From: Candidatus Sulfotelmatobacter sp.
Lineage (GTDB): Bacteria; Acidobacteriota; Terriglobia; Terriglobales; Acidobacteriaceae
DNA length: 36,062 nucleotides
Direction of reading: 5' to 3'
Assembly: GCA_030040965.1 (NCBI GenBank)
Contig: JASHOT010000385.1
Coordinates: 1 to 36,062 of the forward strand
Shown: piece after piece, positions 20,938 to 27,204 of the stretch
Position numbering within the stretch: the stretch's first letter is position 1
How the letters are laid out: each line of letters begins with the position of its first letter
The notes under the pieces: generated by a model
Database searches by the model: none
The model's input: only the letters and a program-made list of their open reading frames with translations
What the model was told of the DNA's origin: nothing
Translations under genes and position numbers: made by a program

Positions 20938-21807
20938 ATGCGAAGAAACTGGATGAAGTGGTCGTTGTGGGTGGTCGCGGTGGTGGTCCTTTCGCTCCCT
21001 GTTGCTTCTTGGGCGCAACTTACGACCCAAGACATCGCGGCTCGCGACAACATGGAGGCGCACGTCGGAAATCTGACGGGGCACGCCAACTCCGGTCAGG
21101 CGAAATATGACTACCGTCGCTATTGCGTCGGCTGCCACGGGGATCTGGGAGACGGCAACGGCGAAGTCGCGCAGTGGCTGGATCCGCCGATGTGGCCCAA
21201 GCCGCGTGATTTTCAGTTGGGTATTTTCAAGTGCCGTTCCACCCCGACGGGAACGCTGCCCACTGATCAGGATTTGTACGACGCGATCAGCCGTGGTTTT
21301 GATCGTTCTGCCATGCCCATCTGGAACGTCTTCACGAAACAACAGCGCGTCGATCTGGTCGCCTTCGTGAAGCACTTTTCTCCCCGTTTTGTCAGCGAGA
21401 AACCCGGAACTCCGATTCAGATACCACCGGAGCCGGAAGTCACCGCGGATCGAGTCAAGAACGGACGGGAAATCTTTGCTCGCGTCCAGTGCTGGAAGTG
21501 TCACGGCGTGACCGGGCAGGCCAATGGACCGTCGGCATCCACGCTGCAGGACGACCTGGGCCGGCCGATTGCAGCCTTCAACTTTACCGAAGGAGCCCGG
21601 CCGAAATGCGGATCGACGGACCAGGATATCTATCGCATCTTCATGACCGGCCTCGACGGCACACCGATGCCGTCCTTCGCCGACAACATCAAGCCAGACG
21701 AGGCATGGGATCTGGTTTTCTATCTGCGAACGCTGATGGCACAGCCGAGTAAGGAAAAGGATATTGCCAGGCAGCTTGGCCTGAAGCCGGTGAGCCCGAA
21801 TCCCTAA
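20938..21807 (+). CDS. Periplasmic diheme cytochrome c
   Basis: This 289-residue protein has a signal sequence (WSLWVVAVVVLSLPVASWA) that may be cleaved before Gln27. Two cytochrome c domains follow, with heme sites CVGCH (63-67) and CWKCH (185-189), each continuing in the GDGNG or GQANGPSA manner of class I cytochromes. Candidate distal Met ligands are in DRSAMPIW and GTPMPSFA. It begins 13 bases after the preceding stop with GAGGG as ribosome binding site, so it belongs to the operon. It probably carries electrons between the heme barrel protein or cupredoxin and the CuA site of CoxB. Confidence 0.92.
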   Translation: MRRNWMKWSLWVVAVVVLSLPVASWAQLTTQDIAARDNMEAHVGNLTGHANSGQAKYDYRRYCVGCHGDLGDGNGEVAQWLDPPMWPKPRDFQLGIFKCRSTPTGTLPTDQDLYDAISRGFDRSAMPIWNVFTKQQRVDLVAFVKHFSPRFVSEKPGTPIQIPPEPEVTADRVKNGREIFARVQCWKCHGVTGQANGPSASTLQDDLGRPIAAFNFTEGARPKCGSTDQDIYRIFMTGLDGTPMPSFADNIKPDEAWDLVFYLRTLMAQPSKEKDIARQLGLKPVSPNP

Positions 21808-21890: not shown

Positions 21891-22622
21891 ATGAACAGAC
21901 AACAGGTGTTTGTCTCCGTACTAGCCATAACAGTTCTGGTTTGTTGTGGCAGCTTGCTTCTGAATAAAACGGTCAGCGCCGCTGGCGAAGGAAAAATCAC
22001 GGGCACCGTGAAACTCGATGGCGAAGCTCCCCACATGAAGCCCATCGACATGTCGAAGGATCCCTACTGCGTAAAGGCGAACCCAACGCCGCAGAAATTC
22101 CAGAATGTGGTGGCTGGCTCCGGCGGCGGACTGGAAAATGTCGTTCTGTACATCTCCGACGGCTTGAGTAATCCAACGGAATCGACGGCCGTGCAAGTAT
22201 TTGATCAGAAGAACTGCATGTACTCGCCGCACGTGCTGGCCATGGATATTGGCCAGACTTTCAAAGTGCAGACCAGCGATCAGACGGCTCACAACATTCA
22301 TCCCAATCCAAATCCCATGACCGGCAACATCCCGTGGAACCAGTCTCAGCCTCCGGGTGCGCCTCCGGTTGAGAAGAGCTGGAAGGCTACGGAGTTTATC
22401 GAGGTGAAGTGCAATATCCATCCCTGGATGCACGGCTGGTTTGCGGTGGTTAAAGGACCCTACGCGGTTACGGATGAGAACGGCAACTTCACCATCCAAA
22501 ACGTGCCCCCAGGAAGCTACACGGTATCTGCGTGGCAGGAAGTCTACGGAACCCAGACGGCAAAAGTCACGGTGGCCGCGGGCGGTTCGGCGAAGGCAGA
22601 CTTCACCTTCAAAGCAAAGTAG
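21891..22622 (+). CDS. Exported cupredoxin-like copper protein
   Basis: This 243-residue protein has an N-terminal signal or anchor (VFVSVLAITVLVCCGSLLL). The middle resembles a plastocyanin-type cupredoxin: a His in TAHNIHPNPNP and then CNIHPWMHGW, where Cys, His and Met are each three residues apart, the pattern of a type 1 copper site. A C-terminal carboxypeptidase-regulatory-like beta sandwich follows (VTDENGNFTIQNVPPGSYTVSAWQEVYG). An extra Cys pair earlier (DPYC, KNC) may form a disulfide. Ribosome binding site GAAGGA. It lies between the cytochrome c gene and coxB, so an electron-shuttling role toward the oxidase is likely. A pure copper carrier for CuA assembly is the alternative. Confidence 0.84.
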   Translation: MNRQQVFVSVLAITVLVCCGSLLLNKTVSAAGEGKITGTVKLDGEAPHMKPIDMSKDPYCVKANPTPQKFQNVVAGSGGGLENVVLYISDGLSNPTESTAVQVFDQKNCMYSPHVLAMDIGQTFKVQTSDQTAHNIHPNPNPMTGNIPWNQSQPPGAPPVEKSWKATEFIEVKCNIHPWMHGWFAVVKGPYAVTDENGNFTIQNVPPGSYTVSAWQEVYGTQTAKVTVAAGGSAKADFTFKAK

Positions 22623-22668: not shown

Positions 22669-22719
22669 TTTGAATTACAGAGCTACGCTTCGAACAGATT
22701 GGGGCGGGAGCGAGGGAAC

Positions 22720-23529
22720 ATGAGCAGCAAGATATTTGCAGTTCTGGTGATCGTAATCGCCTTGGCGTCGGCGGTCCCTATCATCCACCACTCTTTCCTG
22801 GGAGCGACGGTCGCGCCCCCGCAGGACATCTCCACGCATGGCTATGAGATCGATAAGCAGATGGACGAGACCATGCTCGAGGCCGGCCTGTCGTTCCTCG
22901 CTGCGCAGCTGGTGCTGGGATTCTTTGTCTGGCAGTTCGGCGGGCGCAAGGATGGCGTGCTGAAGAATTTTCCTGGCGGGGCCAAGTATCTCGTGCTGGC
23001 TGCTGTGCTGCTGGTTGGAGCCGAGGTGATCGCTCTGGGTGCAATGGGCACCAAGGCCTGGGCCAAAGTGTATTTCGACAAGCCCTCGGCGGATGCCATG
23101 CCCGTTCAGGTGCAAGCCGGACAGTTCGCCTTTTACTTTCACTATCCCGGTCCCGATGGAAAATTCGGCACGATCCATCCGGAAAAAATCGATGAAGGAA
23201 GCGGCAACTATTTCGGTCTTGCCGACGACGATCCTGCCGCCAAAGATGACATTCAATCCGGCGAGTTCGTCATTCCTGTGAACCGCGAAATCCACCTGAT
23301 GATGCACGGGAAGGATGTGGGCCACTCATTCTACGTACGGGAGCTTCGCATCCAGCAGGATTTCGTTCCGGGCATTGATCTCTCGATGCATTTCACCGCG
23401 ACAAAGATCGGGCGATACGAGATCGTTTGTACCCAGCTCTGCGGCCTGGGGCACTACAACATGAAAGCCTATTTAAATGTGATGTCGCAGGAAGATTTCG
23501 ATAAGTGGTTGAAGTCGCAAGCGGGTTAG
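22720..23529 (+). CDS. coxB: Cytochrome c oxidase subunit II
   Basis: This 269-residue protein carries the CuA domain. The ligands are His202 in GHSFYV, Cys237, Cys241, His245 and Met248 in CTQLCGLGHYNM. The residue that is Glu in the canonical CxExC motif (carbonyl ligand and Mg contact) is Gln239 here. Three hydrophobic segments precede the domain (about 5-25, 52-70, 85-105); most family members have two, so the first may be an uncleaved signal. There is no C-terminal cytochrome c domain. I start at the ATG at 22720 (GAGGGAAC upstream); a GTG-type start at 22699 would add seven residues. It precedes coxA. Confidence 0.95.
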   Translation: MSSKIFAVLVIVIALASAVPIIHHSFLGATVAPPQDISTHGYEIDKQMDETMLEAGLSFLAAQLVLGFFVWQFGGRKDGVLKNFPGGAKYLVLAAVLLVGAEVIALGAMGTKAWAKVYFDKPSADAMPVQVQAGQFAFYFHYPGPDGKFGTIHPEKIDEGSGNYFGLADDDPAAKDDIQSGEFVIPVNREIHLMMHGKDVGHSFYVRELRIQQDFVPGIDLSMHFTATKIGRYEIVCTQLCGLGHYNMKAYLNVMSQEDFDKWLKSQAG

Positions 23530-23663
23530 AAATCCCGTCGTCGAAGAAGACTGAGACTGCCGGCTTGGGGAGAATCGACGATGACCGAAGGGCCGGCGAC
23601 CAACAGCCGGGCGGCTAGCGACCAACGATAAACGATCAGAGACTGAAAAAAGGGGTGAGGGCA

Positions 23664-25433
23664 ATGCCGGAACAAGCGGTCCACGTACATCAGGCGCCTA
23701 CAGGATTTATCCGCAAGTACGTTTTCAGCCTCGACCATAAAATTATCGGGCTGCAGTACTACGCGCTCGCCTTCGTTGCCGTGTTCACGGGCATGGTCTT
23801 GTCGTGGCTCATGCGAATCCATCTGGTTTGGCCGAACGCTCCGATTCCGGGTCTTGGTCTGCTCTCGAAGACCGGTGCGCCGGGAGGAATAGTCACGCCG
23901 GAGTACTACCTGCAATTGATGACCATGCACGGCACACTGATGGTCTTCTTTGTTCTGACCAACGCGCCCTTTGCTGCTTTCGGCAACTACTTCCTGCCCA
24001 TCCAGATCGGCGCGGAAGATATGGCGTTTCCCCGGTTCAATATGATGTCGTTCTGGACGACGTTCATTGCTTTCTGCGTTCTGGTGTCGGCCTTCTTTGT
24101 GGGCGATGGTCCGCCACTTTCCGGCTGGACGGCCTACGCACCACTCAGCGCGGTTGGCGGCGATCCCGGTCCCGGTCAGGCCGTTGGTCAGACCTTGTGG
24201 GGCCTTTCGATTTTCATTTTCTGTATCGCGTCGCTGCTGGGCTCATTGAATTTCATTGCCACCACACTGGATCTGCGGACCAAGGGCATGACGCTTTCGC
24301 GCATGCCGATTGTGAGCTGGGCTTGGTTCATCACTTCGTGCATCGCGCTGCTGGCATTCGCCGTTTTGCTGCCGGCTTGCCTGCTGCTCATTCTCGATCG
24401 CGTTGCCGGCACGAGCTTCTTCGTCCCGTCTGGGCTAAACATCAGTGATCATATGCAGCCCCATCAGGGCGGTTCGCCGCTGCTGTGGCAGCATCTTTTC
24501 TGGTTCTTCGGGCATCCCGAGGTCTACATTGCCATCCTGCCCGCGATCGGCATTGTCAGCCACATTCTGATCTGCAACATGCGCAAGGACATGTTGAGCC
24601 ACAAGGTCCTCGTTTATTGCATGATGGCCATCGGATTCCTCAGCTACATGGTCTGGGGGCATCACATGTTCCTGAGCGGTATGAATCCGTTCTCGGCGCT
24701 GGTGTTCTCCTTCCCCACACTGGTGATCACCATTCCCGCGACCATCATGACTTTGATCTGGCTGGGCAGTCTGTACGGATCGAACTTGCGCATCAACTCC
24801 GCATCGCTGTTCTGCCTGGGCTTTATTTCGATGTTCGTCTCCGGCGGGGTGAGCGGATTCTTCCTGGCGCAGCCTTCGATCGACATCTATCTGCACGCGA
24901 CTTACTTCGTGGTCGGGCACTTCCACATGGTGATGGGCGTGGCCGCGATTATGGGGGTCTTTGCCGGAACCTACTTCTGGTTCCCCAAGATGACCGGGCG
25001 CATGATGAATGAAACTCTGGGGAAATGGCATTTCTTCCTGACCTTCATCGGCACCTATGCGATCTTCATGCCATTCCACTATCTGGGTCTGGCGGGAAAC
25101 GTTCGGCGCTATTCCGCGTTCACCGATGATTACCTGGTCCCGCTGGTCCCGGTGCACAAGTTCATTACTTTTGCCGCGCTTTTCACTGGTGCGGCACAAC
25201 TGATTTTTATCTTCAACCTTTTCTATAGCCGCTTCAAGGGAGCGCCCGCACCTGCGAATCCTTGGGAGTGCACGTCGCTGGAGTGGTCGACACCTTCCTC
25301 GCCGCCGCCGTTCGATAACTTCGGCGGCAAGCATCCCGTTGTCTACCACGATCCTTATCAGTATGGCGTGAAGAGTTCGACCGGCGACTATCTCATGCAG
25401 ACGTCGCCTGAACAGGCAGGGCAAACGCCGTAG
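23664..25433 (+). CDS. coxA: Cytochrome c oxidase subunit I (K-channel Lys replaced by Met)
   Basis: This 589-residue heme-copper oxidase catalytic subunit has about 12 helices. It has the D-channel entrance GAEDMAFPRFN, and GHPEVY with Glu286 and the crosslinking Tyr288. CuB ligands are in GHHMF, and heme ligands in HATYFVVGHFHMV. Starting at the ATG at 23664 (GAGG upstream), the numbering coincides with that of Rhodobacter sphaeroides subunit I. By gapless alignment from memory, residue 362 is Met where the K-channel Lys is expected (IPATIM for VPTGIK). Residue 412 is Ala where the Mg-ligand Asp is expected (HAT for HDT). The arginine pair near the heme propionates (VRRY) is kept. It is an A-type oxidase of an atypical branch; reduction of O2 to water is still expected. 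Confidence 0.96.
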   Translation: MPEQAVHVHQAPTGFIRKYVFSLDHKIIGLQYYALAFVAVFTGMVLSWLMRIHLVWPNAPIPGLGLLSKTGAPGGIVTPEYYLQLMTMHGTLMVFFVLTNAPFAAFGNYFLPIQIGAEDMAFPRFNMMSFWTTFIAFCVLVSAFFVGDGPPLSGWTAYAPLSAVGGDPGPGQAVGQTLWGLSIFIFCIASLLGSLNFIATTLDLRTKGMTLSRMPIVSWAWFITSCIALLAFAVLLPACLLLILDRVAGTSFFVPSGLNISDHMQPHQGGSPLLWQHLFWFFGHPEVYIAILPAIGIVSHILICNMRKDMLSHKVLVYCMMAIGFLSYMVWGHHMFLSGMNPFSALVFSFPTLVITIPATIMTLIWLGSLYGSNLRINSASLFCLGFISMFVSGGVSGFFLAQPSIDIYLHATYFVVGHFHMVMGVAAIMGVFAGTYFWFPKMTGRMMNETLGKWHFFLTFIGTYAIFMPFHYLGLAGNVRRYSAFTDDYLVPLVPVHKFITFAALFTGAAQLIFIFNLFYSRFKGAPAPANPWECTSLEWSTPSSPPPFDNFGGKHPVVYHDPYQYGVKSSTGDYLMQTSPEQAGQTP

Positions 25434-25534
25434 CAAGGAAGCACGCCGGACACGCTAAGTTCGTCCGCAAAGAACGCGGACGATTCGCGCGGCTCGTCAG
25501 GATGACAGCCAGCAGGGAAGGGACCTCAGAGGTC

Positions 25535-26221
25535 ATGGCAACAACGTTACCGCCGCCAGTCCAACACGAAGAAGAAAAGAGGGAACGCCCGTACGACGGA
25601 GGCGGCGGATTCCGCAATCTTGTTCCCGCGAACGGTGACCGGCGTGTGGTTGCCGATCCCAAGGGAGAGCCCACCCGCACCGGAATTTGGGTAGCGTTGG
25701 CGGCAATCGCGATGACATTTGCCGCCTTGAGTTCAGCGTTATTCGTTCGTGAGGGATCGTCAAGCTCCGATTGGCACCACATCGTCCTGCCCCGCATTCT
25801 CTTCTTTAATACCGCGGCGTTGGTGGCCAGCAGCATCGCGCTCGAGATGGCGCGGCATCGAGTGGCAGCTTTCATGCGTGGACAGGCGCCGAAGCGCTCT
25901 GCGGCCATGCTCTGGCTCAACGGGACTATGCTGCTCGGTCTGGTTTTTGTCGCTGGCCAGTACATGGCGTGGCTTCAGCTGAGAGCGCAAGGGCTGTATT
26001 TGCCGACCAATCCCAACAGCTCGTTCTTTTATCTCTTCACCGGTGTGCACGTGATTCACGTGCTTGGCGGGCTGGGTGGGCTGACGCGAGTGATGGTTCT
26101 ATTCAGCGGACGTTTCGGTTGGCGGCTGCGTCGCAGCACCCTGGACGCGACGTCCTACTACTGGCATTTCATGGGAGCGCTTTGGATTTACCTGCTCTTT
26201 CTTTTATGGCTGAAGCTGTAG
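25535..26221 (+). CDS. coxC: Cytochrome c oxidase subunit III, first copy
   Basis: This 228-residue membrane protein begins with a ~55-residue soluble, Gly- and Pro-rich tail (MATTLPPPVQHEEEK). Five hydrophobic helices follow, including the subunit III pattern FLFTGVHVIHVLGGLGGL (as FYLFTGVHVIHVLGG) and the final SYYWHFMGALWIYLLFLLWL. The start is unclear: the ATG at 25535 fits relatives, and one at 25502 would add 11 residues; both sites are weak. It is the first of two subunit III-type genes in a row. Subunit III supports proton uptake and stability of the oxidase. Confidence 0.9.
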   Translation: MATTLPPPVQHEEEKRERPYDGGGGFRNLVPANGDRRVVADPKGEPTRTGIWVALAAIAMTFAALSSALFVREGSSSSDWHHIVLPRILFFNTAALVASSIALEMARHRVAAFMRGQAPKRSAAMLWLNGTMLLGLVFVAGQYMAWLQLRAQGLYLPTNPNSSFFYLFTGVHVIHVLGGLGGLTRVMVLFSGRFGWRLRRSTLDATSYYWHFMGALWIYLLFLLWLKL

Positions 26222-26252: not shown

Positions 26253-26879
26253 GTGAGCGAAGCAACTCTGGATCGTGCGTCACATGGCGCGGAGGTGATG
26301 GAAGCGAGCCCGTTTGCCATCCCTTCCAGCAAACTGGTGATGTGGCTGTTCATAATCTCTGACGCCTGCACGTTCGGAGCCATGCTGTTCGCCTATGGCT
26401 ATATCCGCAACTCCGCAGCGGATTGGCCTCTGGTCTTCGAGTCGGCGAGCATCTGGAATGCGCTGTTGATGACGTTCATTCTGGTCACCAGCAGCCTGAC
26501 GGTGCTGTTGGCGGTGCGCGACGCGGCCAATGAGAACCGTGCCGGCGCTTTCAAGTGGGCGATGATCACCGCCGGGTTGGGGGTGGTCTTCACCATCCTG
26601 CACCTGCGAGAGTGGATGAGCCTGATCGGCGAGGGCGTACGGCCTTTCCAGAATCCCTGGGGCGCGCCCATGTTCGGCGCGTCATTCTTTGCCGTTACCG
26701 GCCTCCATATGGCGCACGTGGCGGGCGGAGTTGTGGCGCTGGTGGTGGTTGGGCTCGGCTTCAAGGCCGGTCGTTATGCTTTCCGCCACATCGAGATCTG
26801 GGCTTTGTACTGGCATTTCGTTGATCTGGTTTGGATGTTTGTCGTGCCACTGATCTATCTGTTGAACATGAAGCGCTAG
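26253..26879 (+). CDS. coxC: Cytochrome c oxidase subunit III, second copy
   Basis: This 208-residue protein with about five helices has the subunit III signatures KLVMWLFIISDACTFGAMLFAY, FAVTGLHMAHVAGGVVAL and EIWALYWHFVDLVWMFVVPLIYL. It starts at a GTG with ACGGAGG upstream. It fits the classic subunit III consensus better than the preceding gene. Having two adjacent and divergent copies suggests both are built into one complex, or that each supports a different form. Confidence 0.93.
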   Translation: MSEATLDRASHGAEVMEASPFAIPSSKLVMWLFIISDACTFGAMLFAYGYIRNSAADWPLVFESASIWNALLMTFILVTSSLTVLLAVRDAANENRAGAFKWAMITAGLGVVFTILHLREWMSLIGEGVRPFQNPWGAPMFGASFFAVTGLHMAHVAGGVVALVVVGLGFKAGRYAFRHIEIWALYWHFVDLVWMFVVPLIYLLNMKR

Positions 26880-26907: not shown

Positions 26908-27204
26908 ATGAGCGCACCAAATTCTGAGGGCATGGGCACGACGTTCATTGTTTATGGAGCGATTCTCGCCATCGCGGTGGTTCAGGTTCTCGTTGCGATG
27001 AGCATGGGACCGTCGCTCGGGCGGATGCTGATTCTGGCGGCGATCCAGGCCTATCTGGCCGTCATGTTTTTCATGCACCTGCGCGATGAAAAACCCACCT
27101 TGCGCCTGGCGCTGATCCCGGGCACGATCTTTGTCCTGGTCATGATGAATATGATCTGGGCCGACAGCTTCCGGCTTGCGCTGCTGCGGTCGTTTGCCAA
27201 GTAG
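26908..27204 (+). CDS. Prokaryotic cytochrome c oxidase subunit IV
   Basis: This 98-residue membrane protein has three hydrophobic helices with the subunit IV pattern (AAIQAYLAVMFFMHLRDEKPTLRLALIPG). The central FMHLR stretch after helix two is typical of the bacterial COX4-type subunit. The ATG at 26908 has GGGAG 6 bases upstream. It directly follows the second subunit III gene and completes the I-II-III-IV set. Confidence 0.9.
   Translation: MSAPNSEGMGTTFIVYGAILAIAVVQVLVAMSMGPSLGRMLILAAIQAYLAVMFFMHLRDEKPTLRLALIPGTIFVLVMMNMIWADSFRLALLRSFAK

Follow-up and report, generated by a model that had tools for sequence, protein, structure and literature searches.

The locus raises the question of how a cytochrome c oxidase of the A family could supply its K-pathway with protons when subunit I carries Met in place of the K-channel lysine, a residue that serves as a fingerprint of the family and whose change to Met (K362M) leaves the Rhodobacter sphaeroides enzyme nearly inactive. 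The window, the whole 36,062-nucleotide stretch of Candidatus Sulfotelmatobacter DNA that was analysed, encodes this A-family subunit I in coxA (23655..25433, + strand; 592 aa from a GTG start, with an in-frame ATG at 23664), whose product scored 433 bits against COX1 PF00115 and 555 bits against TIGR02891, the latter under that model's cut-off of 670.75. Aligned by phmmer to PDB 1m56_A, the product ran ungapped from HPEVY through helix VIII ('iPatiMtliw' over 'vPtgiKifsw'), and, counted from ATG 23664, its numbering coincided with that of R. sphaeroides from Glu286 to position 412. The first-pass annotation had assumed this ungapped shared numbering, and had placed Met at the K362 position (codon ATG, 24747..24749, +) and Ala at the T359 position (24738..24740, +); all three readings were borne out.

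The residues that it had listed as retained were all present, namely Glu286 at the D-channel end (24519..24521, +), Tyr288, the active-site Tyr at the end of the K-pathway (24525..24527, +), Ser299 (24558..24560, +), and the D-channel Asp (D132; GAT, 24018-24020), and N121 and N139 were also kept. Position 365, Ser in the canonical enzyme, was Ile. Read against the A-family K-channel fingerprint Lys362/Thr359/Ser299, the window gives Met/Ala/Ser, with only Ser299 kept, and by this fingerprint the enzyme is not a canonical A type; its position in the tree and its fold place it within the A family. An AlphaFold model of subunit I (38 sequences, pLDDT 88.2, pTM 0.91) showed helix VIII broken near the conserved Pro, with the Met (361 in model numbering) within helix 355-369. 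The best Foldseek match of this model was R. sphaeroides 2gsm_A (TM 0.83 and 0.91), and the second was 3om3, the engineered K362M mutant; for one subunit I each of clade 3 and the Myxococcota-type clade, described below, the nearest solved structures were the same canonical enzymes. Like the A1 oxidases (R. sphaeroides, P. denitrificans, bovine aa3), the window enzyme has the fold, the histidines, Tyr288, Glu286, the D-channel and the CuA ligands, but it lacks Lys362, T359 and subunit II Glu101, and has a Glu in helix 2 of subunit II and Thr at position 356 of subunit I.

Relatives were gathered by searching with subunit I through 199 genomes from the phylum and 300 from the family, and by an alignment scan of GTDB contigs (best 80). 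After leaving out three double fetches (L004, L008, L036) and two loci with the gene in two pieces (L048, L196), 198 usable subunit I rows were aligned as a first set, with subunit II found beside coxA in 184 of them; the subunit II state was set by hand in six rows (L033, L035, L120, L122, L179, L197). Later, 18 repeated loci, 2 more repeats, and 4 identical sequences (L124, L125, L126, L212) were removed, and the final set comprised 295 distinct A-family subunit I rows, 283 with a usable subunit II, the other 12 being 6 with Lys362 and 6 without. The first loci added after the rule described below had been seen were 30 drawn from 40 genomes in other phyla, together with 11 from plasmids.

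The clade holding the window (70 rows, 67 distinct) never had Lys at 362, where it carried I in 26 rows, V in 19, L in 11, M in 6, A in 5, and T in 3; the named contigs within it, L124-L126, were labelled as Acidobacteriaceae, Acidobacteriota and Terriglobia MAGs. The suggestion that the Met pattern defines a clade therefore held for the absence of lysine, which is common to all of these acidobacteriotal rows, and failed for Met itself, only one of six residues found there (6/70). Lysine was also missing from clade 2 (6 rows; V, Y, F, I at 362), clade 3 (40 rows; I 37, L 2, V 1), a Myxococcota-type clade (M362 in 9/9, E361 in 7/9), L154 (Binatota, I362), and L185 (Bdellovibrionota, F362), as well as from two lone rows, L144 (V362) and L035 (E362). 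A sharing of the pattern between Acidobacteria and Deltaproteobacteria, which had been surmised, stands insofar as the Myxococcota-type rows also lack the lysine, but they form a separate lineage. Compared with a 91%-identical relative (L103), coxA of the window gave dN 0.062 and dS 1.44, and is under strong purifying selection; since the clade never has Lys at 362 and dN is low against dS, Met362 is not a product of chance or decay.

The first-pass annotation had also argued that an oxidase with Met here must use another residue or proton route, and the comparisons below support this. Around 362 in subunit I, one of the two places proposed, the window clade showed no Lys, Glu or Asp that could compensate; in the other, subunit II, Glu109 of helix 2 was found as the probable compensation, with Thr356 as its putative partner in subunit I. 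Subunit II is encoded by coxB (22699..23529, +; 276 aa from a TTG start, with an ATG at 22720), which matched COX2 PF00116 and CoxB TIGR02866, the latter with 105 bits, under its cut-off of 147.7. Glu109 (GAG, 23023..23025, +), the proposed replacement of Lys362, lies mid helix 2 at about R. sphaeroides II-111, and in a model of subunit II from the ATG start (pLDDT 89.9) it is residue 102, at the centre of a helix predicted for 89-118. It was Glu in 70/70 window-clade rows, while position 362 drifts over six residues. Thr356, the proposed partner of this acid, is encoded by ACC (24729..24731, +), two residues before Pro358. The missing lysine is a real and meaningful feature, and what is added here is its partners, the subunit II carboxylate and Ser/Thr356 of subunit I.

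In the first set, no Asp or Glu lay inside helix 2 in 61/61 Lys362 rows, and one was present in 122/123 Lys-less rows. All 122 acids sat 11 or 12 residues before an aligned Trp, and the distance from acid to outer helix end was constant over the six Lys-less lineages, in which the helix 2 segment was 24, 25, 21, 28, 28, and 29 residues long. The letter was E in the window clade and clades 2 and 3, and D in the other three lineages. All columns of both subunits were then scanned for residue classes that occurred in 60% or more of a Lys-less lineage and in no more than 10% of Lys362 rows, with polar or charged gains only considered, and position 356 was the only subunit I column to gain a class in all six lineages (Ser or Thr in Lys-less rows; Ala or Gly in 69/69 Lys362 rows), the next best columns doing so in three. 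This automatic scan spreads the acid over several gapped columns of subunit II, and counting from the Trp was the analyst's choice.

Across the 283 final-set rows with subunit II, those with a hydrophobic residue or Thr at 362 had both the helix 2 acid and Ser/Thr356 in 155/156 cases, and those with Lys362 had the acid in 0/115, with Ala/Gly at 356 in 113 and Ser/Thr in 2; the acid was found in 0/11 rows with Gln362 and 0/1 with Glu362. The window, with Met362, Thr356 and Glu109, belongs with the first of these groups. A last set of 80 loci (the best 30 matches of each of two further phylum searches, plus 20 chosen regions; 77 with a readable subunit II) gave the same picture, with 38/38 Lys362 rows lacking the acid and having A/G356, 36/36 hydrophobic rows having the acid and S356 (two of them repeating earlier loci), and 3/3 Gln362 rows lacking the acid; 30 of the 36 hydrophobic rows fall in the Bdellovibrionota-type clade of which L185 was already a member, and 6 in clade 3. 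Covariation of position 362, position 356 and the subunit II acid is shown by these counts. By record label, the acid-bearing rows came from ten phyla (Acidobacteriota, Planctomycetota, Omnitrophota, Gemmatimonadota, Binatota, Fidelibacterota, Verrucomicrobiota, Myxococcota, Bdellovibrionota, and Hydrogenedentota). An eleventh label, Pseudomonadota, belongs to L192 (titled Klebsiella pneumoniae), which was taken as a mislabelled MAG, and the labels of L168 (Akkermansia muciniphila) and L129 (Acidimicrobiia) seem not to fit their genes, these also probably being mislabelled MAGs.

Exceptions were few. L144 (V362, A356, no acid) has Gln in place of both CuB histidines 284 and 333, and is probably not a working oxidase, since two CuB ligands are lost. 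L035, from the family of the window, has Glu at 362, has lost D132, and carries no acid in subunit II helix 2. Eleven rows with Gln362 (L210, L236, L238-L243, L321-L323), seven of them on alphaproteobacterial plasmids and one from the Pelagicoccus genome that also carries L191, group in a single clade with full SH-aLRT support; they have neither Lys nor acid, and 10/11 lack S/T356. A protonatable group at either place is thus not universal, a simple 'Lys or acid' rule was dropped on account of these rows, and the Gln362 clade must use another solution.

Some other candidate correlates were tried and rejected. E361 as a substitute in the Myxococcota-type clade was set aside, since in L191 (Pelagicoccus sp. 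SDUM812002) and L194 (Puniceicoccaceae K14) the position is Ile and the subunit II Asp is unchanged. Loss of the Mg site was rejected as a cause, Asp412 being found in 0/70 rows of the window clade (Ala in the window, 24897..24899, +), but also lost in 10/69 Lys362 rows (Asp in 59/69) and kept in 40/40 rows of clade 3. Gln at the place of subunit II Glu254 (Gln246 in the window, 23434..23436, +; Gln in 69/70 window-clade rows), a position that we take to belong to the CuA/Mg site, does not track Lys362, as Gln was also found in 10/61 Lys362 rows. As a separate observation, a Mg site like that of the canonical enzyme looks altered in the window clade, with Ala or Gly at 412 in 70/70 rows and Gln at subunit II 254 in 69/70; the CuA ligands of subunit II (217, 252, 256, 260, 263) were present in the window and in 69-70/70 clade rows.

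The number of origins was examined by parsimony, which gave 4 changes between Lys and non-Lys on a 119-row tree, 6 on 198 rows, and 7 on 299 rows, lone oddities and Gln362 counted, and by AU tests of three groupings on 90 representatives, using a quick tree and a single-matrix model. Holding all Lys-less rows together as one clade cost 365 log units (p-AU 1.5e-48), holding the window clade with clade 2 cost 198 (p-AU 1.3e-25), and holding it with clade 3 cost 164 (p-AU 2.9e-6); a single origin of the Lys-less state is rejected by these tests, and there was more than one. In a tree of subunit II built without helix 2, which had 6 changes of acid state, the window clade and clade 2 fell among the subunit II sequences of Lys362 relatives, and the acid was therefore probably gained in place rather than brought in with a foreign subunit II. 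One could still read the association as shared ancestry, a few old events with no functional link, and a comparison of independent pairs on supported branches leaves room for it, with only 4 usable pairs (3 agreeing, 0 disagreeing, 1 without difference; sign test p 0.25), and with the same outcome for position 356, where 2 pairs agreed in 4/200 pairings. We give this reading the least credence of all, as two further sites change at the exact position, with different letters, in lineages that the AU tests keep apart; it is on this repeated, position-exact change that the case rests, not on the sign test. The pattern suggests repeated evolutionary rebuilding of this proton route.

The explanation that we consider probable is an O2-reducing A-family oxidase whose K-pathway has its protonatable group in subunit II, shifted there from subunit I. 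In such an enzyme, a hydrophobic residue would take the place of Lys362, the Glu109 carboxylate would be buried mid helix 2 of subunit II, probably hydrogen-bonded to Ser/Thr356 of subunit I, and this carboxylate would, during the reductive phase, hand protons on to Tyr288 and the binuclear centre, with the D-channel presumably doing its usual work. We infer the proximity of the acid to 356, its role in carrying protons, and the cytoplasmic origin of these protons. The geometry is compatible with this: A356 is among the residues bounding the K-channel in a simulation, which, in the part of that account consulted, puts E101 at 21.5-23.1 Å from Tyr288 (PMC9687966), and since ten helix residues rise about 15 Å (an estimate that ignores tilt), II-111 should lie near the level of Tyr288 and T359. 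Excerpts of another account describe an O2 channel that approaches from the side of subunit II, follows the farnesyl tail of haem a3, counts V107 of subunit II among its residues, and ends below Tyr288, overlapping the end of the K-pathway (PMC4256069).

Counted against the Glu109 explanation is the lower part of the pathway. The K-channel entrance Glu101, Glu in 61/61 Lys362 rows, was found in 0/70 window-clade rows (Val99 in the window, 22993..22995, +), and no new polar chain toward the cytoplasmic side was seen in the clade. The same absence of a new entrance residue is what one would expect if the K-pathway were gone and all protons came through the D-channel, the acid and Ser/Thr356 then having a structural role, as a pair filling the disused channel, and the D-channel is indeed well preserved in the window clade (D132 as D in 66 rows and E in 4, N139 in 70/70, N121 in 69/70, and Glu286 in 70/70). 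We hold this to be unlikely, since a neutral residue would pack equally well, yet the acid is kept in 155/156 rows, and since the laboratory K362M change stops haem a3 reduction despite an intact D-channel, as described in a portion of PMC12901375, where K319M (bovine numbering) is the change that blocks this step.

The acid might instead open a periplasmic route, with K-type protons taken from outside and less charge separated. In the window clade, acids have been gained around the outer portion of helix 1 of subunit II (E61 in 58/70 rows, E/D57 in 60/70) and Asp412 has been lost, both of which fit such a route, but clade 3 keeps Asp412 throughout and keeps the entrance Glu101 in 33/37 rows, seven residues below its own acid, and we regard an outside source as very improbable. 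As to the helix 1 residue itself, Glu61 (22879-22881) is absent from Lys362 rows and may serve an outer proton route.

It was also considered that the enzyme may be something other than a normal O2 reductase, one that either reduces NO or peroxide or is slow and does not pump, a thought that the genome encourages in that its 5.87 Mb hold four other COX1 genes, all four with Lys362. This seems to us highly doubtful, because the mapped histidines 284, 333, 334, 419, and 421 and Tyr288 are kept in 70/70 window-clade rows, and because the Lys-less gene was the sole CtaD-type match in 12 of 40 genomes reached via named loci (many of them incomplete MAGs, with CtaD-type genes searched). An NO reductase would be recognised by absence of the active-site Tyr, and Tyr288 is present in the window.

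Taking the Lys-less lineages together, we lean towards a K-pathway that exists in two interchangeable designs, one relying on a subunit I lysine, the other on a carboxylate in helix 2 of subunit II with Ser/Thr356, between which enzymes have switched at least three or four times, under ten phylum labels. If so, what the pathway essentially requires would be a protonatable group close to its upper end rather than a positive charge at 362. The role of Lys362 as proton carrier or as positive charge would become testable if the acid replaces it, since a carboxylate cannot supply a positive charge. The R. sphaeroides K362M mutant (3om3) is like the window in having Met at 362, and presumably has neither the helix 2 acid nor S/T356.

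Departures from the canonical channel are already in print. Loss of the K-channel, several times, in archaeal family A oxidases is reported in PMC8239418, which, in the portion consulted, deals with archaea and mentions no acid in subunit II. The K-pathway of B-type (ba3) oxidases has no lysine and is built of Thr, Ser, and Tyr, according to Table 2 of PMC3084760, and in an extract of the same paper a classifier of 1216 sequences found only 4 without the channel residues of their type, which were assigned to the B type. B types differ from the window in having no D-channel, which the window keeps, together with Ala, Met, and Ile at 359, 362, and 365, and by phmmer the subunit I of the window scored 42.8 bits to ba3 1ehk versus 349 to 1m56. 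No account of an acid in subunit II standing in for Lys362 was found in the parts consulted of the open-access literature, which takes in few subscription journals and no supplements. For annotating bacterial oxidases, residues 362 and 356 with helix 2 of subunit II provide a quick sequence test.

Some further observations were made on the related loci. Five acidobacteriotal rows (L031, L033, L104, L116, L139) keep Lys362 and have D132 replaced by Arg, Ser, or Gln, with Asn at 412 where mapped; from their sequences they may represent a lineage with an altered D-channel. In-frame fusions of CoxB to CoxA were not found among the loci, the long open reading frames in L179 and L197 merely overlapping, and the long coxA frames of L189 (7938-10730) and L236-L243 appear, by length and sequence reading, to be COX1-3 fusions with a subunit III-like tail.

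In the window, the oxidase operon lies on the + strand and consists of a c-type cytochrome gene (20938..21807; PF13442, PF00034), a gene for a small protein with a C-terminal carboxypeptidase-regulatory-like domain (21891..22622; PF13620), coxB, coxA, two subunit III-like genes (25502..26221, PF00510, 34.0 bits; 26253..26879, PF00510, 51.2 bits), and a small subunit IV-like gene (26908..27204; PF03626 COX4_pro, 45.2 bits). The protein encoded between the cytochrome c gene and coxB has a Cys-His-Met stretch that by eye resembles a blue-copper site, and is perhaps an electron donor. A UbiA-family prenyltransferase gene (PF01040; 15261-16265, - strand) lies near the oxidase genes, and could be that of a haem O synthase.
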